DNA of 34,661 bases from an uncultured Clostridia bacterium (GTDB taxonomy: Bacteria > Bacillota > Clostridia > Oscillospirales > Acutalibacteraceae): NCBI GenBank assembly GCA_947593615.1, contig CANQDR010000025.1:1-34661 (forward strand), written 5' to 3'. The notes under the pieces are model-generated. The model was not told where the DNA came from, searched no databases, and saw only the letters and a list, made by a program, of their open reading frames with translations. Below are positions 13,225 to 29,287 of this stretch, one piece after another. Every line of letters starts with the position of its first letter. Positions within the stretch are counted from its first letter, which is position 1. The translations under genes were made by a program, and so were the position numbers.

Positions 13225-13230
13225 TTTAAA

Positions 13231-13275: not shown

Positions 13276-13290
13276 GCATAAAATACTCTT

Positions 13291-13312
13291 TTGGGGCTTA
13301 TTTGGGGCTTAT
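13291..13312 (+). repeat. Left arm-type integrase sites
   Basis: Two exact tandem copies of the 11-mer TTGGGGCTTAT (13291-13301, 13302-13312), between attL and the integrase. Matching copies sit at the other end of the element. Confidence 0.7.
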
Positions 13313-13348
13313 TGCTTTGAATAAGCCTATTTTTTGTGCTATATATTT

Positions 13349-14539: not shown

Positions 14540-14664
14540 CGTATTTTAAACATTTCATTATAAGGCTTTAATTGCTTGTCGTCAGTTCCGCAACCACGAT
14601 ATACACGGATCAGAAAAGCTATTAACTTGCCATCTATGTTGCGTTTTTCTCTAATGTTAGCCAT
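14536..14664 (-). CDS. 42-aa AP2-like small protein between repressor and integrase
   Basis: A 42-residue frame starting MANIREKRNIDGKL and continuing IRVYRG..KQLKPY. It resembles the first strands of the AP2-like arm-binding domain of phage integrases. The ATG has GGAG 9 nt upstream and overlaps the repressor stop; its own stop overlaps the integrase start region. This tight coupling (repressor, small protein, integrase) argues that it is translated. It may be a detached second arm-binding domain or a vestige of a longer integrase N-terminus. Confidence 0.6.
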   Translation of the reverse strand: MANIREKRNIDGKLIAFLIRVYRGCGTDDKQLKPYNEMFKIR

Positions 14665-15256: not shown

Positions 15257-15276
15257 ACTTTCGCCCCTTTGTGTTG

Positions 15277-15371
15277 CATAACTTAATTGTTATGTTGTAA
15301 AAAAACATAACAAATACTATTGACTTATGGTTGTTGTTAAGTTATAATCAAATCATAACATAAAAGTTATA
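15277..15371. promoter_or_regulatory. Divergent control region: early promoter and two repressor operators
   Basis: The rightward promoter is TTGACT (15320-15325) and TATAAT (15343-15348), 17-bp spacing. Two dyads share one design: CATAAC-N6-GTTATG (15277-15294) and CATAAC-N6-GTTATA (15354-15371), with further half-sites at 15306-15311 and 15341-15346. The second dyad lies just past the -10. This is the expected layout for a CI/Cro switch. Confidence 0.78.
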
Positions 15372-15404
15372 TAATGTCAACAACAAATGAAAGGAAGATC
15401 AGAA

Positions 15405-15599
15405 ATGAAATCAAACAATGACATTAGACAGTATGCAAAATCAAAGGGCGTTCTTTTATGGGAAATTGCTGAAAAGCTTAATATTTACGACGGTAATTTC
15501 TCCCGCAAGCTCCGAAAAGAGTTACCCGACAATGAAAAAACAAAGGTTATCGGCATTATTGACAACATAGCAAAAAGTAAAGCCGCTGCAGCGGAATAA
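15405..15599 (+). CDS. Small Cro-like DNA-binding protein
   Basis: A 64-aa protein, MKSNNDIRQYAKSKGVLLWEI at its N-terminus, with a helix-turn-helix-like pattern (VLLWEIAEKLNIYDGNFSRKLR). Similar short proteins follow the early promoter in clostridial phages and conjugative elements. The ATG at 15405 has AAGGAAG 7 nt upstream; an earlier in-frame ATG at 15387 overlaps that site. First gene of the rightward operon. Confidence 0.75.
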   Translation: MKSNNDIRQYAKSKGVLLWEIAEKLNIYDGNFSRKLRKELPDNEKTKVIGIIDNIAKSKAAAAE

Positions 15600-15618
15600 T
15601 TAACAGGAGGTACATAAA

Positions 15619-15819
15619 ATGAATGAACCACGAATGAGGACGGCAACACAAGCAATTGAATATATTAAAAGAGCTGATCCTGATACGGCTTTTACATTGT
15701 CAGCACTTAAGAGGATGATGAGGAAGGGTGAAATCCCTGTTGTTCACGTTGAAAGTAAACGGCTTGTAAATCTTAATGACGTTTTAACCTTTCTTTCAGG
15801 GAAAAATTTGAATGAATAG
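15619..15819 (+). CDS. Excisionase-like helix-turn-helix protein
   Basis: A 66-aa basic protein resembling phage Xis/MerR-type winged-helix proteins: RTATQAIEYIKRADPDTAFTL..LKRMMRKGEIPVVHVESKRLVNLNDVLTFL, with the typical IPVxxxxxRxLxNLxDVxxFL ending. It would direct excision with the integrase, or act as an early regulator. AGGAGG lies 8 nt before the ATG. It lies 19 bp after the Cro-like gene. Confidence 0.75.
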   Translation: MNEPRMRTATQAIEYIKRADPDTAFTLSALKRMMRKGEIPVVHVESKRLVNLNDVLTFLSGKNLNE

Positions 15820-15821
15820 CT

Positions 15822-16655
15822 ATGCTAATAGCAATATCAGGCGAATTGTCTAAGGCGGTGGGAGTATTGGGAAATCACAGAATGTTTACAAACACTATTG
15901 TTGATAGTGATAAATTTTTAGAAATGCCATTATCTACACAAGCTCTTTATTTTCATTTAGGTATGAGAGCAGATGACGAGGGCTTTATTGGAAGCCCTAA
16001 AAAGATTATCCGAGCCGTAAATTGCACAGAAGATGACTTAAAACTTCTTATTGCAAAAGGCTTTGTAATATGTTTTGAAAGCGGAATAATTGTTATTACT
16101 CACTGGAATTTACATAACACAATACGGAAAGACCGCAAAAAAGATACATTTTTTCAGACAGAAAAAGCCTTGTTGAGCTTGAATGAAAGTAATATTTATT
16201 CTATTGACAACCAAATGACAACCATTTGTCAACCAAGTGGCAACCAAATGACCGCACAAGGTAAGTTAAGTAAAGATAAGTTAAGTAAAGATAATATAAG
16301 TGATAATGTATCAACTTCCGTTGACGGCCGAACCGCTTTTGATTATCAATCTGTTATAAATTCTTTTAATTCCATTTGTCAAAGCCTGCCAAAGGTGCAG
16401 AAATTAACCGACACACGAAGAAAGAAAATCAAAAGCACATCAAGGCTGTTAGGTAAAATGACCTTTGAAGAAGTATTTTACAAGGTTGAAAGCTCTGACT
16501 TTCTGTCAGGTCGTAACGGCAAATGGACAGCGTGCTGTTTTGATTGGATATTAAACCCGCCTAATTTAACAAAAATTATTGAGGGGAATTATAATAATAA
16601 GCAATCGCAACAACAGAGTACATCACAATACAAGCAAGGAGTTGATTACTTTTAA
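15822..16655 (+). CDS. Phage-type replisome organizer
   Basis: A 277-aa replication initiator. The N-terminal winged-helix region (about 20-120: HRMFTNTIVDSDKFLEMPL..QALYFHLGMRADDEGFI) is typical of phage replisome organizers. A polar linker encodes repeats (KLSKDKLSKDN). The C-terminal motif FLSGRNGKWTACCFDWILN..NLTKIIEGNY, shared with DnaD-like phage proteins, probably contacts the helicase loader. The first ATG (15822) lacks a ribosome-binding site; TTG at 15867 has GGTGG 5 nt upstream and starts nearer the family's usual N-terminus, so it may be the real start. Its stop overlaps the start of the loader gene. Confidence 0.88.
   Translation: MLIAISGELSKAVGVLGNHRMFTNTIVDSDKFLEMPLSTQALYFHLGMRADDEGFIGSPKKIIRAVNCTEDDLKLLIAKGFVICFESGIIVITHWNLHNTIRKDRKKDTFFQTEKALLSLNESNIYSIDNQMTTICQPSGNQMTAQGKLSKDKLSKDNISDNVSTSVDGRTAFDYQSVINSFNSICQSLPKVQKLTDTRRKKIKSTSRLLGKMTFEEVFYKVESSDFLSGRNGKWTACCFDWILNPPNLTKIIEGNYNNKQSQQQSTSQYKQGVDYF
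16206..16310 (+). repeat. Iterons and AT-rich repeats inside the replisome organizer gene (candidate origin)
   Basis: Four tandem 11-bp units: GACAACCAAAT (16206), GACAACCATTT (16217), GTCAACCAAGT (16228) and GGCAACCAAAT (16239). Two tandem copies of the 15-mer AAGTTAAGTAAAGAT (16263 and 16278) follow, then AT-rich DNA. Iterons beside an AT-rich unwinding region within the initiator gene are the usual design of phage origins. Confidence 0.75.
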
Positions 16656-17500
16656 TGAATGAATTATTACAGCAAATTGCAGAACGCTCTATAAAATCAA
16701 TTCCAATGAATGAGGGCGATTATGTAAAAGACGGCTTGCTGTATTGTGGCAAATGTAACACACCAAAACAAGGGAAATTTGTTGTTAGCGGCGGAAAAAT
16801 TATAATGCCCCGTATTCTTTGTGATTGTGAAACCGCAAAAAGGGATAGGGAAGAAGCAGAAGCGAAACGTCAAAAGCAACTGCAATACATAGAGGATTTA
16901 CGAAAAACAGGCATACAGGATAGTAAACTATTGAGTTGTTCGTTTGATTGCGATAACAACCCACAAAGTAAACATTCACAGGCTTTCAGGCAATATTGCG
17001 ACAAGTGGGAAGAAATGAGCAGAAAAAATATCGGCTTGATTTTCTTTGGCGGCGTCGGTACAGGAAAGAGCTTTTACAGCGGTTGCATTGCCAATGAAAT
17101 TATAAAACGTTATTTAATGCCCGTTATTGTTACATCAATTCCAAGAATATTAAATCAATTATTTAGTACAAAAAATAAAAACGAGTATATTAAAGAACTT
17201 GTTAATATACCGCTGCTTGTAATTGATGATTTAGGCGCAGAACGTGAAACCGACTATGCGCTTGAACAAGTTTACACAGTCATAGACGAACGGTATAAAG
17301 CAGAAAAACCACTTATCGTAACAACCAATTTAAGTTATGATGAGTTAAAAAATCCTGCAGACATAAGGCTTAAACGAATTTATGACCGTGTGATAGAAAT
17401 GTGTGTGCCTTTTAATATATCGGGTGTATCACGCCGAGAACAAAAAGCAAAGGAAAAGGCACAGAATGTAAAAGCATTATTGCTTGATGATAAATTTTAA
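16655..17500 (+). CDS. DnaC-type helicase loader (AAA+ ATPase)
   Basis: A 281-aa ATPase that would load the host replicative helicase at the element's origin. The N-terminus has a zinc-binding cluster (YCGKCNTP...ILCDCE, residues 25-54); Walker A is GGVGTGKS (about 131-138), Walker B LLVIDDLGAE, followed by the sensor region IVTTNLS and an arginine-finger region (RIYDRVIEMC). AAGGAG lies 13 nt before the ATG. It overlaps the replisome organizer stop, so the two are coupled. Confidence 0.93.
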   Translation: MNELLQQIAERSIKSIPMNEGDYVKDGLLYCGKCNTPKQGKFVVSGGKIIMPRILCDCETAKRDREEAEAKRQKQLQYIEDLRKTGIQDSKLLSCSFDCDNNPQSKHSQAFRQYCDKWEEMSRKNIGLIFFGGVGTGKSFYSGCIANEIIKRYLMPVIVTSIPRILNQLFSTKNKNEYIKELVNIPLLVIDDLGAERETDYALEQVYTVIDERYKAEKPLIVTTNLSYDELKNPADIRLKRIYDRVIEMCVPFNISGVSRREQKAKEKAQNVKALLLDDKF

Positions 17501-17512
17501 GGAGGTTTGATA

Positions 17513-17812
17513 ATGGCTAATTTCAAAACTTATGAAAGCGTTGTATTTAATATTCTTAAATCGTTTCCTTTGGCAAGGTTAGACGATTATTTTCTTATGA
17601 GTAAAGTATGTGAACAGCTTAACCCTGATTTGTGTGGTAAACCTTTTAAATAAGTTATGCAAGAACATAAAAAATCAGGTTTACCAAATTGGGAAACTGT
17701 CAGCCGTTGCAGGCGCAAGGTGCAGGAGAAACACCCTGAATTAAAAAATCCTGAAACAGCCCGTATAAAAGCAATTGAGCAAGAGAACTACAAGGGTTAT
17801 GCACACACATAA
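17513..17812 (+). pseudogene. Conserved clostridial phage early protein split by TAA
   Basis: A 100-codon frame with GGAGG upstream of the ATG. Codons 1-46 read MANFKTYESVVFNIL...GKPFK, then TAA (17651-17653), then VMQEHKKSGLPNWETVSRCRRKVQEKHPEL to the natural stop. The two halves form one recognisable small phage protein found near replication genes in clostridial prophages; function unknown. Relatives appear, from memory, to have an acidic residue at the stop position, consistent with a single GAA to TAA change. Confidence 0.75.
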
Positions 17813-17814
17813 TC

Positions 17815-17934
17815 ATAAAAAGACAAGTATTCGGTTATTTCGGCTATTTTGGTACCTTAAAAAAGAGCAATGAAGTAAAAGTATCTGTAGATTTCGCAGT
17901 CCCTAAAAAAGGGTACGTAAAACTTGTGAGGTGA
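17815..17934 (+). CDS. Possible 39-aa ORF with ATA in start position
   Basis: An open frame beginning ATA AAA AGA and reading IKRQVFGYFGYFGTLKK..VKVSVDFAVPKKGYVKLVR, stop at 17932-17934. The composition and repeated GYF look protein-like, but there is no ATG, GTG or TTG near the beginning and no clear ribosome-binding site. It fills the gap between two phage genes. Function unknown. Confidence 0.35.
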   Translation: MKRQVFGYFGYFGTLKKSNEVKVSVDFAVPKKGYVKLVR

Positions 17935-17940
17935 GCAACG

Positions 17941-18357
17941 ATAAAAGAACTTGAACAGCTATTAGAACTTAACAAAGACATTGACGCATTATTTGAAAAA
18001 TTGGCTATACGCAGATGTAGTGCTATTGATCCTAAAAGACCGATTATATCCGATCTGCCAAAAGGTAGCGGTTACAGAATTAGTGCAACAGAGAGCTACA
18101 TAATAAATGCCGAAATACTGCAAAACAAATTAAAACGGTTGTCTGAAACACTAAAAATCAAGTGGTTAATATTCCTCAATAACTACGGAGAAGAAAATTT
18201 AACTGTTCAGGAAAGAGATTTGTTACAGCTGCGATTTGTACGTGGTAAAAAGTGGAAAACTTGTGCAAAACAAATGAATACTCTTTACCCTAATGAGGGG
18301 TGGAACGATAACAAGGTATTTCGGACATATAGAAACATTATGAAGAAAATAGGGTAA
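17941..18357 (+). CDS. ArpU/DUF1492-like phage late regulator, apparent ATA start
   Basis: A 138-aa protein: an N-terminal coiled coil (IKELEQLLELNKDIDALFEKL), a central linker (SDLPKGSG), and a C-terminal sigma-region-4-like helix-turn-helix (LTVQERDLLQLRFVRGKKWKTCAKQMN). It resembles the RinA/ArpU/DUF1492 group, which activates late or packaging genes of Gram-positive phages and satellites. GAGGTGA sits 6 nt before ATA AAA GAA, exactly where ATG is expected. The next possible start, TTG at 18001, would remove the coiled coil. It is the last gene of the rightward run. Confidence 0.65.
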   Translation: MKELEQLLELNKDIDALFEKLAIRRCSAIDPKRPIISDLPKGSGYRISATESYIINAEILQNKLKRLSETLKIKWLIFLNNYGEENLTVQERDLLQLRFVRGKKWKTCAKQMNTLYPNEGWNDNKVFRTYRNIMKKIG

Positions 18358-18664
18358 AGCGATAATTAACAAGCAATTCAAGAAATACCGCTAATTTCGT
18401 CAGAAATGGGGTAAATTTTGATTTTTATATTCAGTCATAGAATTACCCTACCACTACCGCAAAAGCCCTAAAAGCCTAACGTAGCTAACGATTTTCGACA
18501 AAGAAAGCGTATTCAAACAATTTTAGATAAAACATAACGCCCCTTACAAGCTGTTTTTGAGCAAGTATGGAGCATTATTTATTAAAGGCTTAAACGGATT
18601 GATAAACGAAAATAGCAACACGACAAAATCACGACAAATAATATTTATCCTGACATTTCTTACA

Positions 18665-18787
18665 CCCTAAAAAAGAGAAAAAGTATTGTCCAATTTGTAA
18701 GTCCCTAAAAAATAAAAGTATTTCCCCATTTTACACACCCTAAAAAAAGGAGTATATAGCTCTTTTAGCTGCCCTAAAAAAGAGTAT
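18665..18787 (+). repeat. Cluster of CCCTAAAAAA direct repeats
   Basis: Four same-strand copies at 18665, 18713, 18738 and 18772, most continuing into a purine run and AGTA or AGTAT. Further copies lie at 17901 and 19073, and a near match (CCTTAAAAAAGAG) at 17855. None lies in a gene that would explain it by codon use, apart from 17855 and 17901 within the 39-aa frame. Confidence 0.7.
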
Positions 18788-19296
18788 TTAGAGATTTTAG
18801 CGCCGTGTAAAACAACGGTACAAAAACGATACAAAAAACAGCTGAAAAATCACCGTTACTATAAGATTTTTACCTTGCATTGCCGCTGCAAATTTAATTT
18901 ATAGCGAGAAAAAAGCGAGAAATTATTTTAAATACACCTTAAAACAATTGACAAAGTGAGGTTTTATAAATATGCCGTTGTTATCGTCAGAAACAGGGTT
19001 ATTTCGATTTTAAGGTAAAATCCATAAGAACATTTACAGATTGGAAAAGTAGATTTTCTTCCATTTCTTCCGCCCTAAAAAAAGGGAAAGAAGTTGTTGA
19101 CCGTCAGGTTGAAAACGCATTATAAGTGTTTTCATATCTTCAATAAAAATTGCATACAGCGGAAATACAGGCAAATATAGAAGCGTTTATTAACTATAGT
19201 CTTTCAAAACGATTGAAAATAAAGTATCCATTAAATAACAGCCGTTATTTTCTGTATGCTTGCGAAATTCCCTGATAGAAACTAAGAAAAACTACA

Positions 19297-19385
19297 TAAC
19301 AAATACGTAACAAATACGTAACAAAAACGGCATAAATTAGCACGATAAAACAAGGGGACAAAATAGACACAAAATAGACACAAAA
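19297..19385 (+). repeat. Tandem 11-bp iteron-like repeats with phased A-runs
   Basis: TAACAAATACG twice plus TAACAAAAACG (19297-19329), then ACAAAATAGAC twice and a partial copy (19358-19385). Similar 11-bp doublets occur at 18619-18640 (CACGACAAAAT, CACGACAAATA) and 18815-18836 (ACGGTACAAAA, ACGATACAAAA). All are on the same strand. Confidence 0.75.
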
Positions 19386-19540
19386 AACCGCCGAAAAAAT
19401 TGCAGAAAATAAGCATATAATTGCGACAAAAAATAATGAAAATTCTGTTGCAAATTCAAATGAGAGTGATACAATAATGGTAGGATTATCAATTAACATT
19501 CAATTGTTCGCAAAGGAAAGTTAGGAAAGAAGCTAATAAA

Positions 19541-19777
19541 ATGACATTAAATCAATATACTAAAGATAAATCATTATCGCCAACAACTCTTTTGCTGATA
19601 GATAAGTTAAAGTTGTTTTGGGAGAATGACGAAGAATTTATAATCGGCGTTTTGGCGGATTTAGAAACAGATTTAGAAAGGCAACAGGTAATAGACTACA
19701 TAGACAGTGGGGAGAATGTAACATATGAAAGCATTATCTTGTTAGCTTTGGAGTTGGAACAAAGTAGAAACAAATAA
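19541..19777 (+). CDS. 78-aa acidic hypothetical protein
   Basis: Not recognised. A 78-residue acidic, helical protein (MTLNQYTKDKSLSPTTLLL at the N-terminus; LADLETDLERQQVIDYIDSG in the middle). No signal peptide or membrane segment. GGAAAG lies 11 nt before the ATG. Its size, charge and place beside phage early genes would suit a small anti-host or immunity-type protein, but nothing in the sequence shows this. Confidence 0.6.
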   Translation: MTLNQYTKDKSLSPTTLLLIDKLKLFWENDEEFIIGVLADLETDLERQQVIDYIDSGENVTYESIILLALELEQSRNK

Positions 19778-19804
19778 AATTGTTATTGTATATGGAGTAT
19801 AATT

Positions 19805-20011
19805 TTAAACGAAAAGAATTTTGGTAAAGCATAAGAAAAATACAAGGCGTTATTTAATGATTATTTTTCGACTTTTAAATTTTCTTACTTGTCGCCAAAA
19901 GAAATGATAGATGTGATAAATGAGTGTGTCGAAAAGCAATAGAATATTTGTCAATTAGGGTATCTTAATTTAGAGGAAGATATTATTTACTTAAAAATAC
20001 TAAAAGTATAA
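19805..20011 (+). pseudogene. Remnant of a small gene with two in-frame stops
   Basis: One frame reads EKYKALFNDYFSTFKFSYLS, PKEMIDVINECVEKQ, TAG (19940-19942), NICQLGYLNLEEDIIYLKILKV, natural stop 20009-20011. Another stop, TAA (19832-19834), precedes it. The composition looks protein-like and differs from surrounding noncoding DNA, but no start or family was recognised. Confidence 0.35.
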
Positions 20012-20195
20012 TTTTGTGCTAATTAAAATCGCTTTATACGATCTGTATTGATTTTTTGAGCGTAAATGTAAAATAATTCATTGATATCTTAAAAAAATGC
20101 GATACACGCCAATTCTCGGCAAGTATGGGGTATATTGAGTGTCATTCTATTTGGTTCGTCTGTATTTACCATTTGCACCTTGTGTAATTGGTAGC

Positions 20196-20235
20196 CGTCC
20201 TATCCTGTTGGCGCAGGGTAGGACGTTTTTATTTT
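20196..20235 (+). terminator. Rho-independent terminator
   Basis: Stem CGTCCTATCCTG with CAGGGTAGGACG (20214-20225), 6-nt loop, then TTTTTATTTT. It ends rightward transcription before the leftward early genes. A second hairpin at 20244-20266 (TGTCAG/CTGACA) may serve the leftward transcript. Confidence 0.88.
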
Positions 20236-20281
20236 ACAAGGTTGTCAGAATTGCCGCCCTGACAGCCATATTTTAATTACA

Positions 20282-20548
20282 TCAATCGGGCTTGTTTTCT
20301 GCAAGACATTTCCGCAATCTTGCTATAGTTTCGGGTAAATTTTCCCTGTCAGCGTATTTTTCGGGGTGTTTTAATCTATCTTCAAGACAGCGTTTTTGCC
20401 AAGTGTAGTCGCTCATTAAAGGAATATTTATAATTGGCATAGCTCCTATTGTAGTAGGCGTAACTGCTCTTAGGTTACCTGCTTCGTCTGCTTTTACATA
20501 TCCTTGAACGTCATATGCTATGCCACTGACTGCAACAGTATTACTCAT
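20282..20548 (-). CDS. 88-aa hypothetical phage protein
   Basis: Not recognised at family level. An 88-aa protein whose first half is beta-rich with glycines (VAVSGIAYDVQGYVKADEAGNLRAVTP) and whose second half is a charged helix (WQKRCLEDRLKHPEKYADRENL). GAGG lies 7 nt before the ATG, which overlaps the preceding gene's stop by 4 bp. It is the last gene of a four-gene leftward early operon. Confidence 0.7.
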   Translation of the reverse strand: MSNTVAVSGIAYDVQGYVKADEAGNLRAVTPTTIGAMPIINIPLMSDYTWQKRCLEDRLKHPEKYADRENLPETIARLRKCLAENKPD

Positions 20549-20751
20549 TTATTTACCTCGCTTTCTTTGCCTGCCTTGTAAAATGTGCCTAATAGAAGAA
20601 TGGTAAAAGCAGCGGAATTGCTTTCTTTTAACCCGATATGTTTCTTTTCAAAGTCAGGTACAATTTTTACTAAATCGCTTGAAAAACCTATGGGTATATC
20701 GTTTTCAGCTAATAATTTTTCGATTGTTTCCCATTTTTTATTGTCAATCAT
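20545..20751 (-). CDS. 68-aa hypothetical phage protein
   Basis: Function unknown. A 68-aa protein, MIDNKKWETIEKLLAENDIP at the start, with a short hydrophobic stretch near the C-terminus (AAFTILLLGTFYKAG) that could be a single membrane or packing helix. The ATG at 20751 is chosen because AAAGGAG lies 9 nt upstream; an earlier in-frame start at 20811 has no such site. Coupled to the following gene by a 4-bp overlap. Confidence 0.65.
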   Translation of the reverse strand: MIDNKKWETIEKLLAENDIPIGFSSDLVKIVPDFEKKHIGLKESNSAAFTILLLGTFYKAGKESEVNK

Positions 20752-20853
20752 TTTGTTTTGCTCCTTTGTATTGATTTTTGGGAGCAGATAGGCTATAATT
20801 AACTTATCCACTCCGATAGGGTGTGTTTTGCTCTTGCATTTGCTTTGGTCGGC

Positions 20854-21087
20854 TTACTGCAAGGGCTTTTCTTTTGCGTTAATTATGGGGCTTTGAGGGG
20901 TTTTTAGCGACAAAGTCCTTTTGGTAATGAAATTATATTCCTGCGTACCTTTTTTTGGTTTATGACCGCTTTTATAGGGGTATAAAGGACAAGTTTTAGT
21001 TGTACACTCCCTGACCTCTAAAGCACTACCACAACAGCAGTCAAGGCATTTAGCCCTTATTGCTTTCATAGGTGTTAATTTACGCAT
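20854..21087 (-). CDS. Cys-rich conserved phage protein (KAIRAKCLDCC family)
   Basis: A 77-aa protein with the well-conserved block MKAIRAKCLDCCCGSALEVR followed by CTTKTCPLYPYKSGHKP. The cysteines probably bind one zinc ion. Short proteins of this kind occur in many clostridial prophages near early genes; their role is unknown. AGAGAGATGA precedes the ATG. Confidence 0.8.
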   Translation of the reverse strand: MRKLTPMKAIRAKCLDCCCGSALEVRECTTKTCPLYPYKSGHKPKKGTQEYNFITKRTLSLKTPQSPIINAKEKPLQ

Positions 21088-21101
21088 TGCTTCATCTCTC
21101 T

Positions 21102-21377
21102 TTATGCCACGCTAAAACGGCGGCTTGTGGTCTGCTTAATGTACTGATTATACAAGTCAAGATGATGTTTCTTGAATGTAGCAGTATCAAAGCGGTTGCT
21201 TATTACAGATGTAAAACGGATTTTAAAAGCTCCTGCTTTCATTTCTTCGAGGTTTTGTGTTGTCATCTCTGCCTTTAATTCGTCTTGTATGGCGGTAATT
21301 TCGCTTTGCAGTTCCTCTGCTTTAGCCTGTAATCTTTTAAGTTTTCTTACTTTTGCGGTTAATTCGTTTGTACTCAT
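21102..21377 (-). CDS. Coiled-coil phage early protein
   Basis: A 91-aa protein: an N-terminal coiled coil (residues 5-42, LTAKVRKLKRLQAKAEELQS and following) and a compact C-terminus (FKIRFTSVISNRFDTATFKKHHLDLYNQYI) seen in many clostridial phages. The layout faintly resembles phage nuclease-inhibitor-type proteins, but this is not established. AAGGAGAG lies before the ATG. First gene of the leftward early operon. Confidence 0.72.
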   Translation of the reverse strand: MSTNELTAKVRKLKRLQAKAEELQSEITAIQDELKAEMTTQNLEEMKAGAFKIRFTSVISNRFDTATFKKHHLDLYNQYIKQTTSRRFSVA

Positions 21378-21506
21378 TTTGGTACTCTCCTTTAATATTT
21401 ATTTGGGCTGTGTGCCATTCCCAGTCTTACGCCCTATCGGTTTGTCGTAACTGCACATTAACGAGCCGTTTGTCTACGGGTGTACGCTGTCCCTCTCACT
21501 GTCTAC

Positions 21507-21612
21507 ATTATAATACTTGTACAACTATATTTCAATAGGCAGAATACACAAACTTGTACAAGTATTTTTGTACATAATTATACTTGTACAACATAAGATT
21601 GTATGCTATAAT
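21507..21612. promoter_or_regulatory. Divergent promoters with ACTTGTACAAGT operators
   Basis: Leftward: TTGAAA (21530-21535) and TATAAT (21507-21512), 17-bp spacing. Rightward: TTGTAC (21584-21589) and TATAAT (21607-21612), 17-bp spacing. The palindrome ACTTGTACAAGT is perfect at 21552-21563. Near copies sit in the leftward spacer (21515-21526) and over the rightward -35 (21582-21593), with a partial copy near 21567. One repressor could control both operons. Confidence 0.82.
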
Positions 21613-21640
21613 AAGATTAAAGAAAGAGGGTAATATATTT

Positions 21641-21901
21641 ATGCCGACAATATGTATGTTCAGAGGAATAAAAATCTATATAAATTGGCGTGACCATATG
21701 CCGCCACATTTTCACGCTAAATACGGTGACAGCGAGGTAATTGTTTCAATTAACGATATTGAAGTATTAGAGGGCACAATGCCGAATAAACAATTAAAAA
21801 TGCTTTTAGGTTGGGCGGCATTCCACCAAGAGGAATTAAAAGAAAATTGGGAGCTTGCCGCTGCACAACAAGAATTATTTTCTATTGAGCCTTTAAAATA
21901 A
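21641..21901 (+). CDS. DUF4160 protein
   Basis: An 86-aa DUF4160 protein: MPTICMFRGIKIYINWRDHM, PPHFHAKYGDSEVIVSINDI and LPLKMLLGW-like KQLKMLLGWAAFHQEELKENW. The family is often paired with DUF2442, as here, and the pair has been suggested to act as a toxin-antitoxin-like unit; this is not proven. ATG at 21641 follows GAGGG by 10 nt. First gene of the four-gene rightward cargo operon. Confidence 0.88.
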   Translation: MPTICMFRGIKIYINWRDHMPPHFHAKYGDSEVIVSINDIEVLEGTMPNKQLKMLLGWAAFHQEELKENWELAAAQQELFSIEPLK

Positions 21902-21913
21902 GGGAGTGATATT

Positions 21914-22282
21914 ATGCCGAATACAGTTGAATATTATCTTTCAAAAGGTTTTGACCGTCCAATTGCGGAATACTTTGCAGGAGGTAGGAAGAAACTTATT
22001 GCCGTTGCCCCGCAACACGATTTTACACTTCTGTTGACCTATGAAAGCGGAGAAAAGCGTGTACTTGATATGAAGCCCACACTTGAAATGGGCGGCGTTT
22101 TTGCTTCGTTCAGAGATTATGAAAATTTCAAGCGTGTATATGTGGACGATTGCCACGATATAGCGTGGGATATTGACCCGAATGTTGACAGTAATGTTGT
22201 TTGGAATAATAAGGTTGACCTTTGCCCCGATACCTGTTATGTTGATAGCATACCGCTGTCAGAATACAAGGCGGTGATATAG
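21914..22282 (+). CDS. DUF2442 protein
   Basis: A 122-aa protein with an N-terminal segment (VEYYLSKGFDRPIAEYFAGG) and a DUF2442 domain (IAVAPQHDFTLLLTYESGEK, FKRVYVDDCHDIAWD). It lies 12 bp after the DUF4160 gene, with GGGAGTG before the ATG, and its stop overlaps the GTG start of the next gene. Probable partner of DUF4160. Confidence 0.85.
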   Translation: MPNTVEYYLSKGFDRPIAEYFAGGRKKLIAVAPQHDFTLLLTYESGEKRVLDMKPTLEMGGVFASFRDYENFKRVYVDDCHDIAWDIDPNVDSNVVWNNKVDLCPDTCYVDSIPLSEYKAVI

Positions 22283-22482
22283 TGGAAGAAACAAAGGGAA
22301 CGCCACAAACAAGAGCGAAAAATAAATATAATGCAAAGGCTTATGACAGCCTGCGAATTGTTGTAAAAAAAGGTAAAAAAGATAAAATAAAAACCTACGC
22401 TGATAGCAAAGGCGAAAGCATAAACGGCTTTGTAAACCGTGCCATTGATGAAGCTATGGAGCGTGACAACTCAGCGGAATGA
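22282..22482 (+). CDS. Ribbon-helix-helix (Arc/MetJ-like) protein
   Basis: A 66-aa basic protein with the ribbon-helix-helix pattern YDSLRIVVKKGKKDKIKTYA and GESINGFVNRAIDEAMERD, typical of antitoxins and copy-control repressors. It starts with GTG, overlapping the preceding stop by one base. It is a candidate autorepressor for the palindromic operators upstream of the operon. Confidence 0.82.
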   Translation: MEETKGTPQTRAKNKYNAKAYDSLRIVVKKGKKDKIKTYADSKGESINGFVNRAIDEAMERDNSAE

Positions 22483-22497
22483 TGGAGGTCGATTTTT

Positions 22498-22731
22498 ATA
22501 TCAGATAAAACAAATCAAATAGCAGAAATGCTTGATATGTTACCCGAACAAGAACAAAATCTTGCTTGTGAGATGTTAAAGAGAATTGTGCTTGCGTGGG
22601 ATCCTGATTTCACAAAAGTGACAGCAGAAGAAGCAAAACAACTTGAAGAAGCAGAACAAAGCGGCTTTATATCCGAAGATAATATTGATTGGGATAACCT
22701 TTCACAATACGCACAACAAGGCAAACTCTGA
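22498..22731 (+). CDS. Acidic antitoxin-like protein, apparent ATA start
   Basis: A 77-aa protein from ATA at 22498: ISDKTNQIAEMLDMLPEQEQ, then ACEMLKRIVLAWDPDFTKVT, and the C-terminal IDWDNLSQYA. Proteins of this kind are widespread beside toxin-like or phage genes in Firmicutes and normally begin MSDKTNQI. GGAGG lies 9 nt before the ATA. An ATG at 22528 is possible but has no ribosome-binding site and drops ten conserved residues. A terminator overlaps the 3' end. Confidence 0.7.
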   Translation: MSDKTNQIAEMLDMLPEQEQNLACEMLKRIVLAWDPDFTKVTAEEAKQLEEAEQSGFISEDNIDWDNLSQYAQQGKL

Positions 22732-23196: not shown

Positions 23197-23857
23197 TGAC
23201 CCCCAAAGTTTAGACAAAAGTAAATATTAAATTGCAAGAGAATGAGTTCGGTATTGCACCGGGCTCATTTTCAGTTTAGATACAATTCGTTCGTTGTTGT
23301 AGTAATCAATGTACAGTTTCAAACAGTTGATGAATTCATCAACTGTTTGAAAGTGCTCGCCGTAAAACATTTCGACTTTCAGTCTGCCAAAGAAGTTTTC
23401 CATCGCCCCGTTATCCATACAGTTTCCCTTGCGTGACATACTTTGCGTAATATTATGTTCAGCAAGTAGGCGTTGATATTCTGAATGTTGATATTGCCAG
23501 CCTTGGTCCGAATGGAAAATTGGTCTTGCATCTTCAGGCAATTTCTTAAATAAACCATTCAGCATATCTCTGATTTGCTGTAAATCAGGACTTAAAGAAA
23601 TTGAATAAGATATAATTTCACGATTAAACAAATCAAGAACAGGCGATAAATATACTTTCTCGTTGCAGACATTAAACTGTGTAACATCTGTCGCAAGCTT
23701 TTCAAACGGCTTGTTTGCTTTAAAATCTCTTTTGATGATGTTATCAGCAACCTTACCAACTGTACCTTTGTATGAATGATATTTTCCGTTTTTGCTTTGT
23801 TTGGCTTTCAAACCAAGCTCTCTCATTAGCTTTTGTACAGTTTTATGATTGATTGGA
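23197..23857 (-). mobile_element. IS3-family (IS150-like) fragment, 3' part
   Basis: Contains the right-end repeat TGACCCCCAAAGTTTAGACA (23197-23216) and most of orfB. Its 5' part, including orfA, is replaced at about 23857 by another IS end in opposite orientation. Confidence 0.8.
23227..23856 (-). pseudogene. IS3-family transposase OrfB, N-terminally truncated
   Basis: The DDE integrase domain of an IS150-type transposase: NHKTVQKLMRELGLKAKQ, first Asp in LATDVTQFNV, second in IFHSDQGWQYQH and Glu in NGAMENFFGRLK, then the usual YIDYYNNERI and PVQYR ending. The catalytic triad is present, but the N-terminal part and OrfA are missing; upstream codons belong to the neighbouring IS end read backwards. 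Not expected to transpose on its own. Confidence 0.88.
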
Positions 23858-24050
23858 TGTATACTAAAAAAGTAGACAAGTATGATATAATAAAAACAAT
23901 AAAAAATATACAGGTAAGGAGAGAAAAGAATGTCAGGGAAAACAACAAAATACACCTTAGAATTCAAGCAAACAATTGTCAATTTGTATCACTCAGGAAA
24001 GACATACACACAGATAAATCAAGAATATGGAATATCCCATAGCTTTAGAA
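23858..24050 (+). mobile_element. IS3-family fragment, 5' part
   Basis: Begins with a left-end repeat, TGTATACTAAAAAAGTAGACA-like (23858-23878), sharing the TAGACA end with the other fragment, and runs into orfA before breaking off near 24040-24050. It abuts the orfB fragment tail to tail. Confidence 0.7.
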
Positions 24051-24055
24051 GCTAA
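23930..24055 (+). pseudogene. IS3-family OrfA fragment
   Basis: The first 35 or so codons of an IS150-type OrfA: MSGKTTKYTLEFKQTIVNLY and HSGKTYTQINQEYGISHS, the start of its helix-turn-helix. The frame then leaves the family and stops at 24053. AAGGAGAG precedes the ATG. Confidence 0.78.
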
Positions 24056-24320
24056 TTTTCCTTATGAAAATTCTTTATGTCGTATTCCTGCTGGACGACT
24101 TAGACCATTCCGTGTTGTTATTGAAAAATTACACCTTGATAATGAACATTTAGCACAAAAAATATTTTATGTGATTTCACAGTTAGAACACAAACAGTTA
24201 TTTTTTACAAATAATGAGTGTGTAGAAATTATAATATCCGAGCTCAACGAAAATATAAAACGACTTAATGAGATTTATACACAAGCAGAATTTAGATATA
24301 GGACAAAGTTTAAACAATAA
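24027..24320 (+). CDS. Unrecognised ORF spanning the IS junction
   Basis: A 97-codon frame whose first codons overlap the OrfA remnant in another frame. The rest reads RPFRVVIEKLHLDNEHLAQK and is helical and charged. It has no ribosome-binding site and is probably the 3' part of a gene whose start was lost at the IS junction. No family recognised. A further open fragment (about 24343-24523, SEIKPTSLATSLQITEEQIY) follows without a start. Confidence 0.35.
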   Translation: MEYPIALEANFPYENSLCRIPAGRLRPFRVVIEKLHLDNEHLAQKIFYVISQLEHKQLFFTNNECVEIIISELNENIKRLNEIYTQAEFRYRTKFKQ

Positions 24321-24558
24321 CAAAAAAACAACCAAACGGTTAAAAAATAAGACTACCAGAGTGTCGACTCTCATAGACTTTCAGAAATAAAACCGACCTC
24401 ACTTGCAACATCATTACAAATAACAGAAGAACAAATATACAATCATTTTGAATTTTTTATAAAGCAAAAAGGTGAAATTAAAAGCAAAATTTTAAACAAA
24501 TTATTTTTGTATATTTTATCGTGATTTCACAAAATATGCACATAAAATTGCGAAATAG

Positions 24559-24622
24559 TTGCATTTTCATTTTAAATAGCTTATTATATAATTAGCTGAC
24601 AAAATATGTAATTTTATGTCGG
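24559..24622 (+). promoter_or_regulatory. Promoter and dyad before the repeat lipoprotein
   Basis: TTGCAT (24559-24564) and TATTAT (24582-24587) with 17-bp spacing. Just downstream, GCTGACA and TGTCGGC form an imperfect inverted repeat around an AT-rich 15-nt centre (24594-24622), a possible operator or 5' hairpin. Confidence 0.55.
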
Positions 24623-24652
24623 CAAATTAATTATATTTTGGAGGAATACAAA

Positions 24653-25414
24653 ATGAAAAAAACTTTTGCTTTACTGCTATCGTTTTCTTTGATGCTATCG
24701 CTTACAGCTTGTGGAGGAGAAACGACACCAATTAATTCAGACAATTCACCCGCTACTTCCCAAAGCGAAGAAAGCAAGAACAATACGACGGATAACACTG
24801 AAGGTGCGACTGGGCTTGATGAACTCAATGAAATTGTTTCAAAAGATGTAGAAAATACGATTGATGCTCTCAAAGCAGTGTATGAAAATGTGGTAACAGA
24901 CATTGATACATACGACAAATATCTTGAAAACACAGATGAAATTGAAACCTTTTATGCAAAAGTCCTTGCGGATACTGAAGCCATGTGCATTAACATGCGT
25001 GAGTATAGCGTTAAATATGCTGAAATAATTTTATCTTCTGACAAATCCAATGATGATAAATATGATGATTTTGATGAATTATATGACTGCATATATGACG
25101 ACTCAGGCGACGAAATATATAACGAAATATATAAAGGCATACTTGACGATATGTATGACACTTTCTACGACGGAATTTTAGATGATGCGTACGATGATGC
25201 TCCTTATGATGAGTGGTCTGACGCGCGTTCTGACGAATATGATCGGTGGTCTGATACGCGCTCCGATGTTTATGATGAATTGTCTGACTTTCGCTCTGAT
25301 GTTTATGATTTTTGGTCTGACATGAGAAGCAAATTATGGAATCATGATATTGAAAAAGCAGAGAACAAACTAAAGGACTTCAAAGAAGATATAGAAAAGC
25401 AAAAAAAGGCGTAG
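24653..25414 (+). CDS. Acidic lipoprotein with four 11-residue repeats
   Basis: A 253-aa predicted lipoprotein: signal peptide with lipobox LTAC (Cys20), Ser/Thr/Glu-rich linker (22-55), a helical domain (56-130), a very Asp/Tyr-rich segment (135-184), then four tandem 11-residue units (185-228) of form YDxWSDxRSDx, and a charged helix at the C-terminus. The 11-residue period suggests a right-handed coiled coil; the Asp density suggests cation binding. The ATG at 24653 has GGAGG 8 nt upstream. Similar repeat lipoproteins seem to exist in gut Clostridia, but no function is known. A hairpin terminator (about 25438-25465) follows. Confidence 0.82.
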   Translation: MKKTFALLLSFSLMLSLTACGGETTPINSDNSPATSQSEESKNNTTDNTEGATGLDELNEIVSKDVENTIDALKAVYENVVTDIDTYDKYLENTDEIETFYAKVLADTEAMCINMREYSVKYAEIILSSDKSNDDKYDDFDELYDCIYDDSGDEIYNEIYKGILDDMYDTFYDGILDDAYDDAPYDEWSDARSDEYDRWSDTRSDVYDELSDFRSDVYDFWSDMRSKLWNHDIEKAENKLKDFKEDIEKQKKA

Positions 25415-25436
25415 TAATTCGCTAAATATAAAAAGC

Positions 25437-25534
25437 ACCGCCCGTTACTGCGAATAACGGACGGCAATAAATAAATGTGAGAATATTGCACTCCTCAAAT
25501 AATATATTACAATATGTGATAATATTTGTCAATA
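25437..25534 (+). repeat. Structured repeat, copy A (left of the RexA-like cassette)
   Basis: Starts ACCGCCC, forms a GC hairpin (CCGTTA/TAACGG), then TGAGAA...CTCAA, then TAATA-rich DNA and TTGTCAATA. The same order and spacing occur at 27126-27227. It also holds the likely promoter of the next gene: TTGCAC (25486-25491) and TACAAT (25508-25513), 16-bp spacing. Confidence 0.65.
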
Positions 25535-25549
25535 AAGGAGTAAAATATT

Positions 25550-26401
25550 ATGTCATTGGATTGTGTAAAAAAGAGTATTTATTTTTACAAAACTTTGCCT
25601 GAGAATAGTTTATTTTGTTCTCAAGGTAACGATTCAGAAAATCTAAAATTTATGCTTAATAAAAGATTTCCCAAATTAACTATCTATCAATCTAAAGATG
25701 GAAAATATAATATAGAAATAAAATCCTTTGATTCAGAACATATTTTTGGAATGTTTTGTAAAAAAGACGAAAACATAAATAAATTCATGAGGTTAAAATC
25801 AGTTAAGAATGATACCCCTCAAGAAATAGATGCTGAACAGGAAAAGATAATTTTAGAATACTACTCATTTTTTTACATTGATATCAACAGAAAAATGACT
25901 GCATTTATTTCAAATAAACAATCGGGAAAATTTACCGATATATTAAACGAGCTTTTATTTGAAGAAAATTATCATATCAACTTTATTCCCTATTCAATAG
26001 AGTCACTTGAAAAAGCAGTAAGCAAATTCAAACGAATAAAAAATATTGAAGCTACATACTGTAAAAAATCATCTCAAGAAAGATTTCAAAAAATCTCTGA
26101 ATACCCTGGTGAAAATTCATTAGTTATTGAATCCCTAAAAATCATACTAAAAGTAAGTAGTACAGGAAAACAATTTGTTAATGATTTAAGAAAGATAGAA
26201 AATCAGAATAAAAAATATGAGAAATATAAAATAGTTGGCGAATCAGATGATGGAATTGAACAGGTGTTCGATATTATCAAGCGATTGTTCTATAGAAACG
26301 CTAAAATTGAAATTCAAGGTAATCCACAAAAGAATCTTGATTTTATAAAAACAAGATTAAAAGATGAATTACAATTAATTTATCTTGAAGAAAACTCATA
26401 G
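25550..26401 (+). CDS. RexA-like soluble protein (candidate phage-defence sensor)
   Basis: A 283-aa soluble protein with no clear family. A beta-rich N-terminal domain (1-170) ends in YYSFFYIDINRKMTAFISNK, GKFTDILNELLFEE, INFIPYS, resembling by eye the order of elements in lambda RexA (279 aa). The C-terminal half (180-283) is basic and helical and could bind nucleic acid. AAAGGAG lies 9 nt before the ATG. Its 3' end overlaps by 6 bp the convergent gene for a four-helix membrane protein the size of RexB. KwaB-type (DUF4868) proteins are an alternative. Similarity is inferred from layout, not a search. Confidence 0.5.
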   Translation: MSLDCVKKSIYFYKTLPENSLFCSQGNDSENLKFMLNKRFPKLTIYQSKDGKYNIEIKSFDSEHIFGMFCKKDENINKFMRLKSVKNDTPQEIDAEQEKIILEYYSFFYIDINRKMTAFISNKQSGKFTDILNELLFEENYHINFIPYSIESLEKAVSKFKRIKNIEATYCKKSSQERFQKISEYPGENSLVIESLKIILKVSSTGKQFVNDLRKIENQNKKYEKYKIVGESDDGIEQVFDIIKRLFYRNAKIEIQGNPQKNLDFIKTRLKDELQLIYLEENS

Positions 26402-26848
26402 TTGATTTTTTACAGTTAGATAATAAAGGTAATATATTGCTCCTGCGACCTCTAAGCATCCAGCAATAAAACTATAAAGGCCCAAAATATAGTAATCATC
26501 AATTCCTATTATCCATGTAGCTATAGGAATGAAGAAAAAAACCGTCCCCAACAATATTATTCTTATAAAAATCTTATGATGACCATTTTCTATAAACCAT
26601 TTTTTAAAATCACTTTTATTTGGTATGGAAAAATACACTGTTGCAATAGTAAGTAAAAAGCCAATAAACGTACCTGACATAATTGCCAAATTACAAACAT
26701 TGGAATTGTTTTCTATAAAACAAGCAAATACATTTTGGCTTTTATCAAAAAAATAAATTAGTACAACAATCATTAACACAGAAAAATATAAATACTTATA
26801 AATTAATACTTTAAAAAATTGTTTAATCTTTTTCGTGATTATCGCCAC
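26396..26848 (-). CDS. RexB-like four-helix membrane protein
   Basis: A 150-aa membrane protein with four hydrophobic helices (about 14-34, 54-74, 93-114, 119-144), a short charged loop after helix 2 and a basic N-terminus. Length and topology match lambda RexB (144 aa, four helices), and MSGTFIGFLLTIATVYF parallels RexB's second helix. KwaA of the Kiwa system is another four-helix possibility. The start is unclear: GTG at 26848 lies within the ribosome-binding site AAAGGTGG, and the codons after it include ATA and ACG where ATG might be expected. It is convergent with the RexA-like gene, unlike lambda. Confidence 0.55.
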   Translation of the reverse strand: MAIITKKIKQFFKVLIYKYLYFSVLMIVVLIYFFDKSQNVFACFIENNSNVCNLAIMSGTFIGFLLTIATVYFSIPNKSDFKKWFIENGHHKIFIRIILLGTVFFFIPIATWIIGIDDYYILGLYSFIAGCLEVAGAIYYLYYLTVKNQL

Positions 26849-26925
26849 CTTTAATTTAATTATATCATATTTAGCTTAATAAGAAAACATAATTCACATA
26901 AAACGAACATTAAATGGAGGTTATT

Positions 26926-27120
26926 ATGCCTTTTTCTACTAATATGCGTGAACTCCGTAAAAAACATGAACTTACACAAACCGAATTAGCCCAAAAGTTG
27001 CATTTAAGCAGAACAGCTATTTCTAATTACGAAAAAGGTAAAATGCAACCATCAATCGAAACTATAATTCAGATATCTGAAATTTTTAATATTTCAATAG
27101 ATAAATTACTTAAACAATAA
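26926..27120 (+). CDS. Small XRE-family regulator
   Basis: A 64-aa helix-turn-helix protein: MRELRKKHELTQTELAQKLH, LSRTAISNYEKGKMQPSIET, then ISEIFNISIDKLL. It contains only the DNA-binding domain. GGAGG lies 5 nt before the ATG. It is divergent from the RexB-like gene and probably controls it or the whole cassette from the 77-bp gap. A hairpin (in repeat copy B) follows the stop. Confidence 0.9.
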   Translation: MPFSTNMRELRKKHELTQTELAQKLHLSRTAISNYEKGKMQPSIETIIQISEIFNISIDKLLKQ

Positions 27121-27125
27121 TAAAA

Positions 27126-27227
27126 ACCGCCCACTATTGAGGTAGTGAGCGGTTCGGGAATAGGTATCTGAGAAACAAAAATGTTTCTCAAGTAATATTT
27201 TATTATATCTAACAAATTTTGTCAATA
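27126..27227 (+). repeat. Structured repeat, copy B (right of the cassette)
   Basis: Begins ACCGCCC with a hairpin (ACCGCCCACTA with TAGTGAGCGGT), then a perfect hairpin TGAGAAACA/TGTTTCTCA, then TAATATTTTATTATAT and TTGTCAATA. The first hairpin could also terminate the XRE gene. Confidence 0.65.
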
Positions 27228-27284
27228 TATTTTATAAACTTATGCTTTATTTTATGATGTAAAACTAAGAAAGCGTGATAAATT

Positions 27285-28724
27285 ATAAATACCGAACTAA
27301 AAATTGCTGCTGCTTATATACGAGTAAGTACTGATAATCAAACTGAGCTGTCACCTGACAGTCAGATTAAGGTTGTTCAACAGTATGCAAAACAACACGG
27401 TTATATCATTCCAAAGGAATATATTTTTCGTGATGACGGCGTTTCAGGCAGACACGCAGATAAACGTCCTCAATTTAACGAGATGATTGCTACTGCAAAA
27501 CAAAAGCCCTCCCCTTTCTCTGCCGTTCTTCTTTGGAAATTTTCACGTTTTGCACGTAATCAGGAAGAAAGTATTTTCTATAAATCAATGCTTCGTAAAA
27601 ACGGTGTTGAAGTTGTCAGCGTTTCTGAACCTATGGTTGAAGGTCCGTTTGGAACTTTGATAGAACGCATAATAGAATGGTCTGATGAATACTACTCCAT
27701 TAGATTATCAGGTGAAGTAAAAAGGGGCATGACTGAAAAGGTCGAGCGCGGAGGAGCCGTTACTATTCCCTCATTCGGATACAGCATTGAAAATAAAAAG
27801 TACATCGTTAATCCCGATACTGCACCAATAGTCCGCAAGATTTTTTCAGATTATCTTAACGGCATAGGCTCAATGAAAATTGCTCGGAAACTTAATGCCC
27901 TTAGAATTAAAACTACTCGAGGAAATCTATGGGAAAACAGAACGGTTAATTATATTCTGCAAAATCCTGTTTACATAGGCAAAATTCGCTGGAATCCAAA
28001 ACGCAGGACACAACTAAATTATAATGACCCAGATATAATGATTGTTGAGGGTCAACATGAACCTATTATTGATGAAGAAACTTTCAACAAAGTTCAGGAG
28101 CTGATTGCTGAAAACAAAAAGAAACATCTTTCATACACTCATTCAAAAATCAATGAAGAATATATGCTGCACGGACTTGTAAAATGCTCTAACTGTGGTG
28201 CAAGCCTTGCGATGGCTGTAAAAGGTTCATCATTGCAGTGCGTAAAATACATTCATGGAAAATGCGATATATCTCATTCTATATCAATACGAAAAATAAA
28301 TGCAATGGTAATTATTGCAATTGAGCAAGCTTTTAAAACAGAAATCTTTAACCTTTCTGTAAAAGATGTATCGCAATCATCTGACAACGAAATTGATATT
28401 AACAACCTGATTGAAAAAGAAAAGCAAAAACTTAGAAGAATTAAAGAAGCGTTTGAGGACGGAGTTTATACATTATCTGAATATAAGGAAAGCAAACAGA
28501 TAATTGAAACACAAATTTCAAATCTTGAGAGCCGTCAAATTAAACCGCAAAACAGTGAAAAGGAGTTACGCAGAAAGCTCATTGAAAAAAATAAAAATGT
28601 TATTCAGCAGCTCAGAAGTCCAAATCTAAGTGAGTATGAAAAAAACGATATACTTCGCAGCTTTGTAGATAAAATCGTCTTTAATCGCACCACTTCAAGC
28701 ATTGATATATTTTTTTACATCTAA
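27285..28724 (+). CDS. Large serine recombinase, apparent ATA start
   Basis: A 479-aa site-specific recombinase: catalytic domain (1-140) with nucleophile Ser in AAAYIRVST, DDGVSGRHADKRP and the Arg motif KFSRFARNQEES; recombinase domain (about 150-260, YLNGIGSMKIARKLNALRIK); zinc ribbon (CSNCGAS...LQCVKYIHGKCD); and a C-terminal coiled coil. The frame opens with a stop, ATT, then ATA AAT ACC (27285), where ATG is expected. The first ATG (27483) would lose the catalytic serine. The gene ends directly beside a cotJC fragment, its probable integration site. No matching left end is visible. Confidence 0.85.
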   Translation: MNTELKIAAAYIRVSTDNQTELSPDSQIKVVQQYAKQHGYIIPKEYIFRDDGVSGRHADKRPQFNEMIATAKQKPSPFSAVLLWKFSRFARNQEESIFYKSMLRKNGVEVVSVSEPMVEGPFGTLIERIIEWSDEYYSIRLSGEVKRGMTEKVERGGAVTIPSFGYSIENKKYIVNPDTAPIVRKIFSDYLNGIGSMKIARKLNALRIKTTRGNLWENRTVNYILQNPVYIGKIRWNPKRRTQLNYNDPDIMIVEGQHEPIIDEETFNKVQELIAENKKKHLSYTHSKINEEYMLHGLVKCSNCGASLAMAVKGSSLQCVKYIHGKCDISHSISIRKINAMVIIAIEQAFKTEIFNLSVKDVSQSSDNEIDINNLIEKEKQKLRRIKEAFEDGVYTLSEYKESKQIIETQISNLESRQIKPQNSEKELRRKLIEKNKNVIQQLRSPNLSEYEKNDILRSFVDKIVFNRTTSSIDIFFYI

Positions 28725-29094
28725 TCTATCACCTTTTGCAGTACGGAGGTCCAGACGGAGAACTTGGCGCGTCACTAAGATATTTAAGTCAACGTTTTAC
28801 AATGCCCTTACCGGAATTAAAAGGTACACTTACTGATATAGGTACCGAGGAACTGGGTCATCTTGAGATGATTGGCGCCATCGTTTATCAGCTGACAAAA
28901 AATCTTACTGAAGACGAAATAAAGAAAGCCGGATTCGAAGATTATTTTGTTGACCATACAACAGGTATATATCCTCAGGCTGCCGCAGGTTTCCCCTATA
29001 CCGCTGCATCAATGCAGGTAAAAGGCGACGCCATAACAGACCTTCACGAAGATATGGCAGCAGATGGCACGACCGTGCAAGTGCAACATTTATG
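28725..29094 (+). pseudogene. cotJC: CotJC-type manganese catalase, truncated at both ends
   Basis: Reads QYGGPDGELGASLRYLSQRF, TDIGTEELGHLEMIGAIVYQ, FVDHTTGIYPQ and GDAITDLHEDMAAD, the core of CotJC/manganese-catalase proteins with the metal-binding Glu and His of EELGHLEM. The first ~30 codons are missing at the recombinase junction. After MAAD the frame is disturbed by small insertions, including a doubled GTGCAA, and stops early. The intact protein is a spore-coat component in Bacillus. No cotJA or cotJB is present. Confidence 0.85.
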
Positions 29095-29113
29095 ATGAAA
29101 TCGGATAAAACCC

Positions 29114-29287
29114 GCATAAACACTGCGTTTTTTAAAATTATAAGGTTGTACAAGCTATTTTTATGCTACGATTGCATAAGTACAACTTAAATTATTATAT
29201 CTTCTAAAGACAGCATAAATACTGGGTTTTAGAACATCAAAAGGTTGTACAAGCCTTTTCCTTAGCATAATTGTATAAGCACAATAA
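29114..29287 (+). repeat. Two diverged tandem repeats
   Basis: Units starting GCATAAACACTG (29114) and GCATAAATACTG (29213), period 99 bp, both continuing to GGTTGTACAAGC and ending GTACAAC or GCACAA. Each can fold back on itself (TTGTAC with GTACAA). No gene lies here. Confidence 0.6.

Follow-up and report, generated by a model that had tools for sequence, protein, structure and literature searches.

The window analysed here is the whole 34,661-nt contig CANQDR010000025.1 from an uncultured Clostridia bacterium of the family Acutalibacteraceae, and our subject is a three-gene cassette within it that an initial annotation, made by eye, had compared with the RexA and RexB genes of phage lambda. 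Open reading frame (ORF) calls confirm the sizes and positions of genes for a 283-aa soluble protein, a 150-aa membrane protein and a small XRE regulator. The first two genes are convergent and overlap by 6 bp (26396-26401), and the XRE and membrane genes diverge from a 65-bp intergenic stretch. Conservation of homologues indicates that both reading frames are real: the soluble protein has 76 homologous clusters, and the membrane protein has four, at 90%, 86% and 54% identity together with P0078, a shorter reading of the window's own protein.

25550-26401, plus strand: gene of the soluble protein, 283 aa (ORF call; RexA/RdgC-type fold predicted)
26396-26848, minus strand: gene of the membrane protein, 150 aa, GTG start (ORF call; four hydrophobic segments)
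26914-27120, plus strand: gene of the XRE (Cro/CI-type) regulator, 68 aa (ORF call; HTH_3 match)
25428-25532, minus strand: left repeat unit, with promoter-like TTGACA-17-TAATAT, a structured stretch of ~75 nt and a terminator-like hairpin
27117-27225, minus strand: right repeat unit, with promoter-like TTGACA-17-TAAAAT and two hairpins, terminator-like
27282-28724, plus strand: large serine recombinase (Pfam Recombinase and Resolvase; frame read)

The soluble and membrane proteins

The 283-aa protein matches no Pfam family at E <= 1 and no PADLOC family at E <= 10; PHROGs (E 2.7) and NCBIfam (E 0.095) give a single row apiece, both at the level of chance. None of these libraries places it in an unrelated housekeeping family, the outcome against which the initial annotation had warned. 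One of its 76 homologous clusters is 91% identical and the others are 46-56% identical, and an alignment search recovered the same 76. The clusters represent few lineages, with 64 of 75 rows of alignment A4 being 96-100% identical to cluster P0045. The longest contig measures 31-40 kb in 19 of the 76 clusters, and P0045 bears a 'MAG TPA' name in addition to the name of a Ruminococcus metagenome-assembled genome (MAG); we read the contigs of this length and the 'MAG TPA' name as pointing to phage genomes. Across GTDB contigs, IMG/VR, phages, plasmids, 398 genomes of the family and 394 of the order, only the window's own copy was found. Its absence elsewhere from the species-level collections and from IMG/VR, phage and plasmid records makes the gene look like rare accessory DNA.

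A first structure model (A1), built from the window protein and 15 of its 76 homologues, reached a mean pLDDT of 47.5 and gave weak fold matches. The second and better model used alignment A4, comprising 75 of the 76 homologues (P0073 left out) and the window protein. The best structural matches of its modelled N-terminal domain, over about 100 residues only, are RdgC and CENP-N/CHL4, which differ from the window pair in being recombination-associated and kinetochore proteins, respectively. Lambda RexA is absent among the 50 best structural matches listed for this model, which does not exclude RexA. Overall, structure comparison moderately favors a predicted fold of the RexA/RdgC/CENP-N type. 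RexA itself is a dimer that binds DNA non-specifically, and in its two-domain, RdgC-like fold a dimerisation domain splits the globular domain. Three uncharacterised phage proteins of 277-314 aa in BFVD (A0A8S5MSR5, A0A8S5S8L2 and A0A8S5QGP5) match the modelled fold at E 8e-9 to 9e-5 and are possible further relatives.

Two other defence families were considered for the soluble protein. KwaB produced no PADLOC row for 16 members of the soluble family, and neither window protein matches KwaA or KwaB in PADLOC, so that a link with Kiwa is not supported. HEC-01B gave a weak PADLOC match covering part of the profile in 9 of the 16 members (best E 1e-4) and none for the window's 283-aa protein, and was set aside as chance. 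In 6 of 299 other genomes, HEC-01B was matched by ORFs of 183-231 aa, each adjoining a P-loop ATPase-like ORF (by eye); an ATPase gene of the HEC-01 type is absent beside the window's 283-aa gene.

Membrane segments were assigned from hydropathy alone, and RexB, CarolAnn gp43 and Butters gp31 were treated in the same way for comparison. The 150-aa protein has hydrophobic segments at residues 14-32, 51-69, 97-115 and 120-138, compared with 8-26, 48-66, 84-102 and 116-134 in RexB; it agrees segment by segment with RexB and has the four predicted segments that characterize described RexB-like proteins, as had been claimed from its sequence. The loop between segments 2 and 3 holds five Lys/Arg and two Asp/Glu residues (5/1 in RexB, 5/3 in CarolAnn gp43 and 4/7 in Butters gp31), making it basic as in RexB and, less so, CarolAnn gp43, whereas the Butters gp31 loop is acidic. 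In Sbash gp31, two substitutions in this loop abolish defence, according to PMC6426596. Family searches with the membrane protein returned only FAM176 (E 0.24) and TauE (E 0.39) in Pfam, both below cut-off, no PADLOC family at E <= 10 and, as the best row from PHROGs and NCBIfam, a PHROG family of unknown function (E 0.0012). No relatives were found in GTDB contigs or IMG/VR, and the 394 genomes of the order gave the window's own protein and eight places at E 0.003-0.008 (one in its own genome), which we took as noise. The XRE protein is an ordinary member of HTH_3 (Pfam, E 1.3e-19).

A proposed Rex-type exclusion pair and its rivals

We put at roughly 0.45 the probability that the soluble protein with its RexA/RdgC-type fold and the predicted four-helix membrane protein form a Rex-type exclusion pair on an integrated element; by analogy with lambda RexA and RexB, the two would likely act together to stop infection by other phages. 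Several features of lambda Rex (PF15969, PF15968) are shared. The proteins are similar in size (279 and 144 aa in lambda, against 283 and 150 aa), as the initial annotation had noted, and the pairs have in common four membrane segments (predicted in the window protein), a basic loop between segments 2 and 3, a resemblance, here predicted, to an RdgC-type fold, and a position beside a Cro/CI-type regulator gene in an integrated element. Furthermore, the soluble and membrane proteins probably recur as a pair twice, once with both at about 55% identity, because the longest contigs are equal for clusters P0001 (soluble) and P0077 (membrane), at 5830 bp, and for P0066 and P0080, at 11666 bp.

Other results weigh against this assignment. 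The 150-aa protein has no match to the RexB profile (PF15968), against which RexB itself scores 8.5e-92, and hhalign gave 0.2%. Likewise, the RexA profile (PF15969), against which lambda RexA scores 1e-97, produced no row at E <= 10 for the 16 soluble-family members, and neither hhalign in four modes nor decoy-controlled profile alignment found a sequence relation between the family and RexA; a by-eye match of stretches of the 283-aa protein to RexA was not used, as these two comparisons gave nothing. The genes converge, unlike the tandem arrangement behind cI in lambda and the co-directional order behind the lysogeny repressor in CarolAnn, and the window pair lies near a serine recombinase, a further difference from lambda. 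Finally, P0079, 86% identical to the window's membrane protein, occurs on 29 contigs, and no soluble cluster is similarly close; the two further inferred pairs suggest that the families co-occur, but not strictly. Soluble clusters with no known membrane partner tell us little here, since the membrane search reached close relatives only. What survives of the label RexA-like is size and a moderate fold likeness, and of RexB-like the predicted topology; sequence membership in either family does not. Because both profiles and the co-directional layout fail, we do not file the pair as a member of RexAB, and consider it likely that it works like one.

According to PMC12894663, the RexAB-like systems described number only five; in four of these the soluble partner activates the membrane protein, with loss of membrane integrity, and in Butters the roles are reversed. 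The same paper reports that lambda and Pseudomonas putida Rex need the right ratio of their two proteins. The P. putida prophage P1 RexAB (PP_5643/PP_5644) resembles the window pair in having a soluble partner linked to RexA by remote methods and an unclassified partner with four transmembrane segments (4-TM), and in being prophage-borne, but it is operonic, and HHpred gave RexA at 98% probability there (PMC12894663), in contrast to nothing by profile comparison here. CarolAnn gp44/gp43, Sbash gp30/gp31 and Butters gp30/gp31 are likewise soluble plus 4-TM pairs of temperate phages, and the CarolAnn pair also lies close to a serine integrase and a repressor; they differ in being co-directional and encoding actinobacteriophage proteins of about 370-400 aa, and the CarolAnn and Butters proteins, the two tested, have no detectable sequence relation to those of the window. 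Among the papers listed by our literature searches, judged by title and the opening of the abstract, we found no convergent Rex-like pair.

Under the Rex-type reading, the soluble protein would sit on DNA as a dimer and be triggered when an infecting phage makes its replication or early proteins. Its next action would be to open the membrane protein, probably via the basic loop between helices 2 and 3, and the membrane would leak, so that the infected cell would stop growing before phage release. The soluble gene may be driven from the region of the left unit, and the membrane gene from the 65-bp divergent region common to the XRE gene, whose product would repress it. Since the genes converge, unlike those of lambda, the dose of each would be set separately, and such control could allow the element to balance the amounts of the two products. 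Seen directly are the layout of the genes, the hydrophobic segments, the units with their copies and the recombinase at its catalase junction; fold and membrane topology are predictions.

The convergent layout and separate control regions would also suit two independent cargo neighbours, namely a stand-alone RexA/RdgC-like DNA-binding protein and a membrane protein under an XRE repressor. Orphan RexA homologues lacking RexB have been reported (PMC11077077), and the 29 contigs of P0079 point the same way, but both proteins seem to recur jointly at about 55% identity (P0066/P0080), which is rare for chance neighbours. We regard this explanation as less likely than the Rex-type reading. Separate promoters would also be appropriate for an inhibitor, as in the variant described from mycobacteriophage Butters gp30/gp31 (PMC7542560, PMC12894663), in which the effector is the soluble protein, kept inactive at the membrane by its membrane partner. 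Sequence does not discriminate between the two role assignments; however, the membrane protein is the effector in the other four described Rex-like pairs (PMC12894663), and the window's central loop is basic as in RexB rather than acidic as in Butters gp31, leaving this variant improbable. Least probable is an addiction-type module of a membrane toxin and an XRE repressor, with the 283-aa protein unrelated to defence: the divergent XRE gene 65 bp from the membrane gene and the several antitoxin families among the XRE protein's weak NCBIfam matches would fit it, but the best 25 of 32 such rows all fall below cut-offs, and the combination of four segments and a basic central loop is reminiscent of RexB.

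Structured repeat units

The two similar repeats of ~100 bp proposed to flank the cassette were found; they share a 41-nt core at 78% identity and, as a correction, both are minus-strand units. At full length (25428-25532 and 27117-27225, with folding z-scores of -3.1 and -5.2) they align over their whole ~105 bp with three further copies in the same genome. The consensus of the five copies contains 21 pairs, 4 of them changed on both sides, all four in the terminator stem. Rfam gave no match at gathering score in the window, the two unit copies included. Plain site scans of 24000-29200 do not rise above chance (30 promoters against 26.8 +- 4.6, and 3 terminators against 2.4 +- 1.6), and the case for the units therefore rests on the conserved copies. 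A covariance model, searched with filters that lose weak matches, located 7 copies in the genome itself, 5 of which it was trained on; the search of 199 other genomes of the family added 8 copies, found in 7 genomes. Copies outside the window are as follows.

L082:2625-2733 and L082:3034-3141, plus strand: unit copies (alignment/covariance model)
L083:2373-2485, minus strand: unit copy (alignment/covariance model)
G000 C10:4454-4561 and C63:1024-1132: unit copies (covariance model)
8 places in 7 other genomes: unit copies (covariance model)

The promoter end of the left unit lies 18 bp from the start of the 283-aa gene. An ORF starting in the opposite direction within 115 bp of the promoter end accompanies 9 of the 12 first units, compared with 1881 of 5368 random intergenic placements (35%) drawn from the same nine loci under an ORF rule of >=60 aa, with the 115-bp limit fixed after the distances were seen. 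With one small ORF and three loci added by hand, 13 of 15 units have such a divergent start, the exceptions being that on C5 and the window's right unit, which faces the recombinase. By eye, the surroundings at 12 loci include an integrase with an XRE or ImmA gene at 7, XRE plus ImmA at 1 (C2), integrase-like ORFs only at 2 (C5, G154) and neither at 2 (C63, G025).

Among ten ORFs near units that were profiled, one encodes an Ltp-type lipoprotein (PF07553, 2e-27) and another an HsdR_N protein (4.4e-14); the rest encode zinc-ribbon, SWIM, Ada-type, nucleotidyltransferase, DUF2085 or unassigned proteins. Ltp acts by blocking DNA injection. It is described as the prototype superinfection-exclusion lipoprotein (PMC3952083). 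The Ltp-type gene on contig C2 of the same genome encodes a protein different from the window pair but, like the RexA-like gene, lies near a unit's promoter end, starting 43 bp from it. Hence the RexA-like gene sits in a type of slot that also carries exclusion and restriction genes, and the defence-type location first proposed is supported by both the integrase beside the cassette and these unit copies.

Three loci in other genomes are of note. At L096:2567-3895 (G119), an HsdR_N gene has a unit on each side, and a serine-integrase-like ORF and an XRE gene flank the whole, an arrangement similar to that of the window's cassette. At L104:1145-3256 (G007), a unit lies between an Ada-type zinc-domain protein and a nucleotidyltransferase with a substrate-binding domain; an integrase-like ORF and a pair resembling an addiction module are close by. 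The unit at L103:966-2415 (G025) is near an ORF that resembles (by eye) the CotJB-type protein which also precedes the catalase piece on C37.

The integrated element and its setting

28738-28750, plus strand: GCAGTACGGAGGT, junction of the recombinase element with a manganese-catalase gene, common to contig C37 (L010:5225-5237)
24638-25414, plus strand: ORF preceding the left unit immediately upstream, lipoprotein-like by eye (Pfam gives no family above cut-off)

Pfam supports the recombinase noted initially (27483-28721; Recombinase 7.4e-28, Resolvase 2e-9), with the correction that its frame is open from 27282, the first ATG is at 27483, and no ATG, GTG or TTG stands in frame ahead of the conserved N-terminus. 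The recombinase gene is followed immediately by an internal fragment of a manganese-catalase (CotJC-like) gene (28739-29068, profile positions 28-151), whose 5' piece is on C37:19144-19239 (profile 1-32) and 3' piece on C10:46174-46386 (profile 147-217); a fourth, longer catalase match is at C1:86438-87064. As C37 and the window have GCAGTACGGAGGT in common at the junction, the element carrying the recombinase is inserted in the catalase gene, with its recombinase end in the window. Beyond the junction on C37 are ORFs resembling tail-type pectate-lyase and SGNH proteins (by eye). Because the C10 piece adjoins another serine-recombinase-like ORF (by eye), two elements probably use this catalase gene. 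In Clostridioides difficile, a gene deleted next to a prophage is also a CotJC-like catalase homologue, according to PMC11222575.

Elsewhere in the window, positions 13137-22700 contain a tRNA-Leu, a phage-type integrase (13349-14260), an XRE repressor-like gene, and replication and DnaC-like ORFs, which by eye constitute a second integrated element or remnant. A transposase-like ORF (23227-23982) separates it from the recombinase element. A rearrangement or assembly join at this insertion sequence is likely, since housekeeping genes adjoin the recombinase end in the window and the element's opposite end is on C37.

Taken as a whole, we tentatively propose a sequence-unrelated, convergent Rex-type pair together with a promoter-RNA-terminator unit that marks a cargo slot and lies, in opposite orientation, ahead of exclusion and restriction genes carried by temperate elements of this bacterial family, genes that it may control or help exchange. 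The unit may be undescribed; its two window copies have no Rfam match at gathering score, and no literature search was made for the RNA unit. If true, the pair would occur in a lineage near gut clostridia (a Ruminococcus MAG gives the commonest homologue its name), in hosts far from the proteobacterial and actinobacterial hosts of described Rex systems, and would mean that the Rex design extends beyond what profile searches can detect. With the two genes under separate control, the effect of their dose, an old question of lambda Rex, would become directly testable. The transcription-unit family would be the more unusual part of the finding: as it precedes the Ltp-type lipoprotein, the HsdR_N protein and the RexA-like gene in the loci read, the unit would offer a sequence handle for unannotated exclusion genes in the temperate elements of this family.
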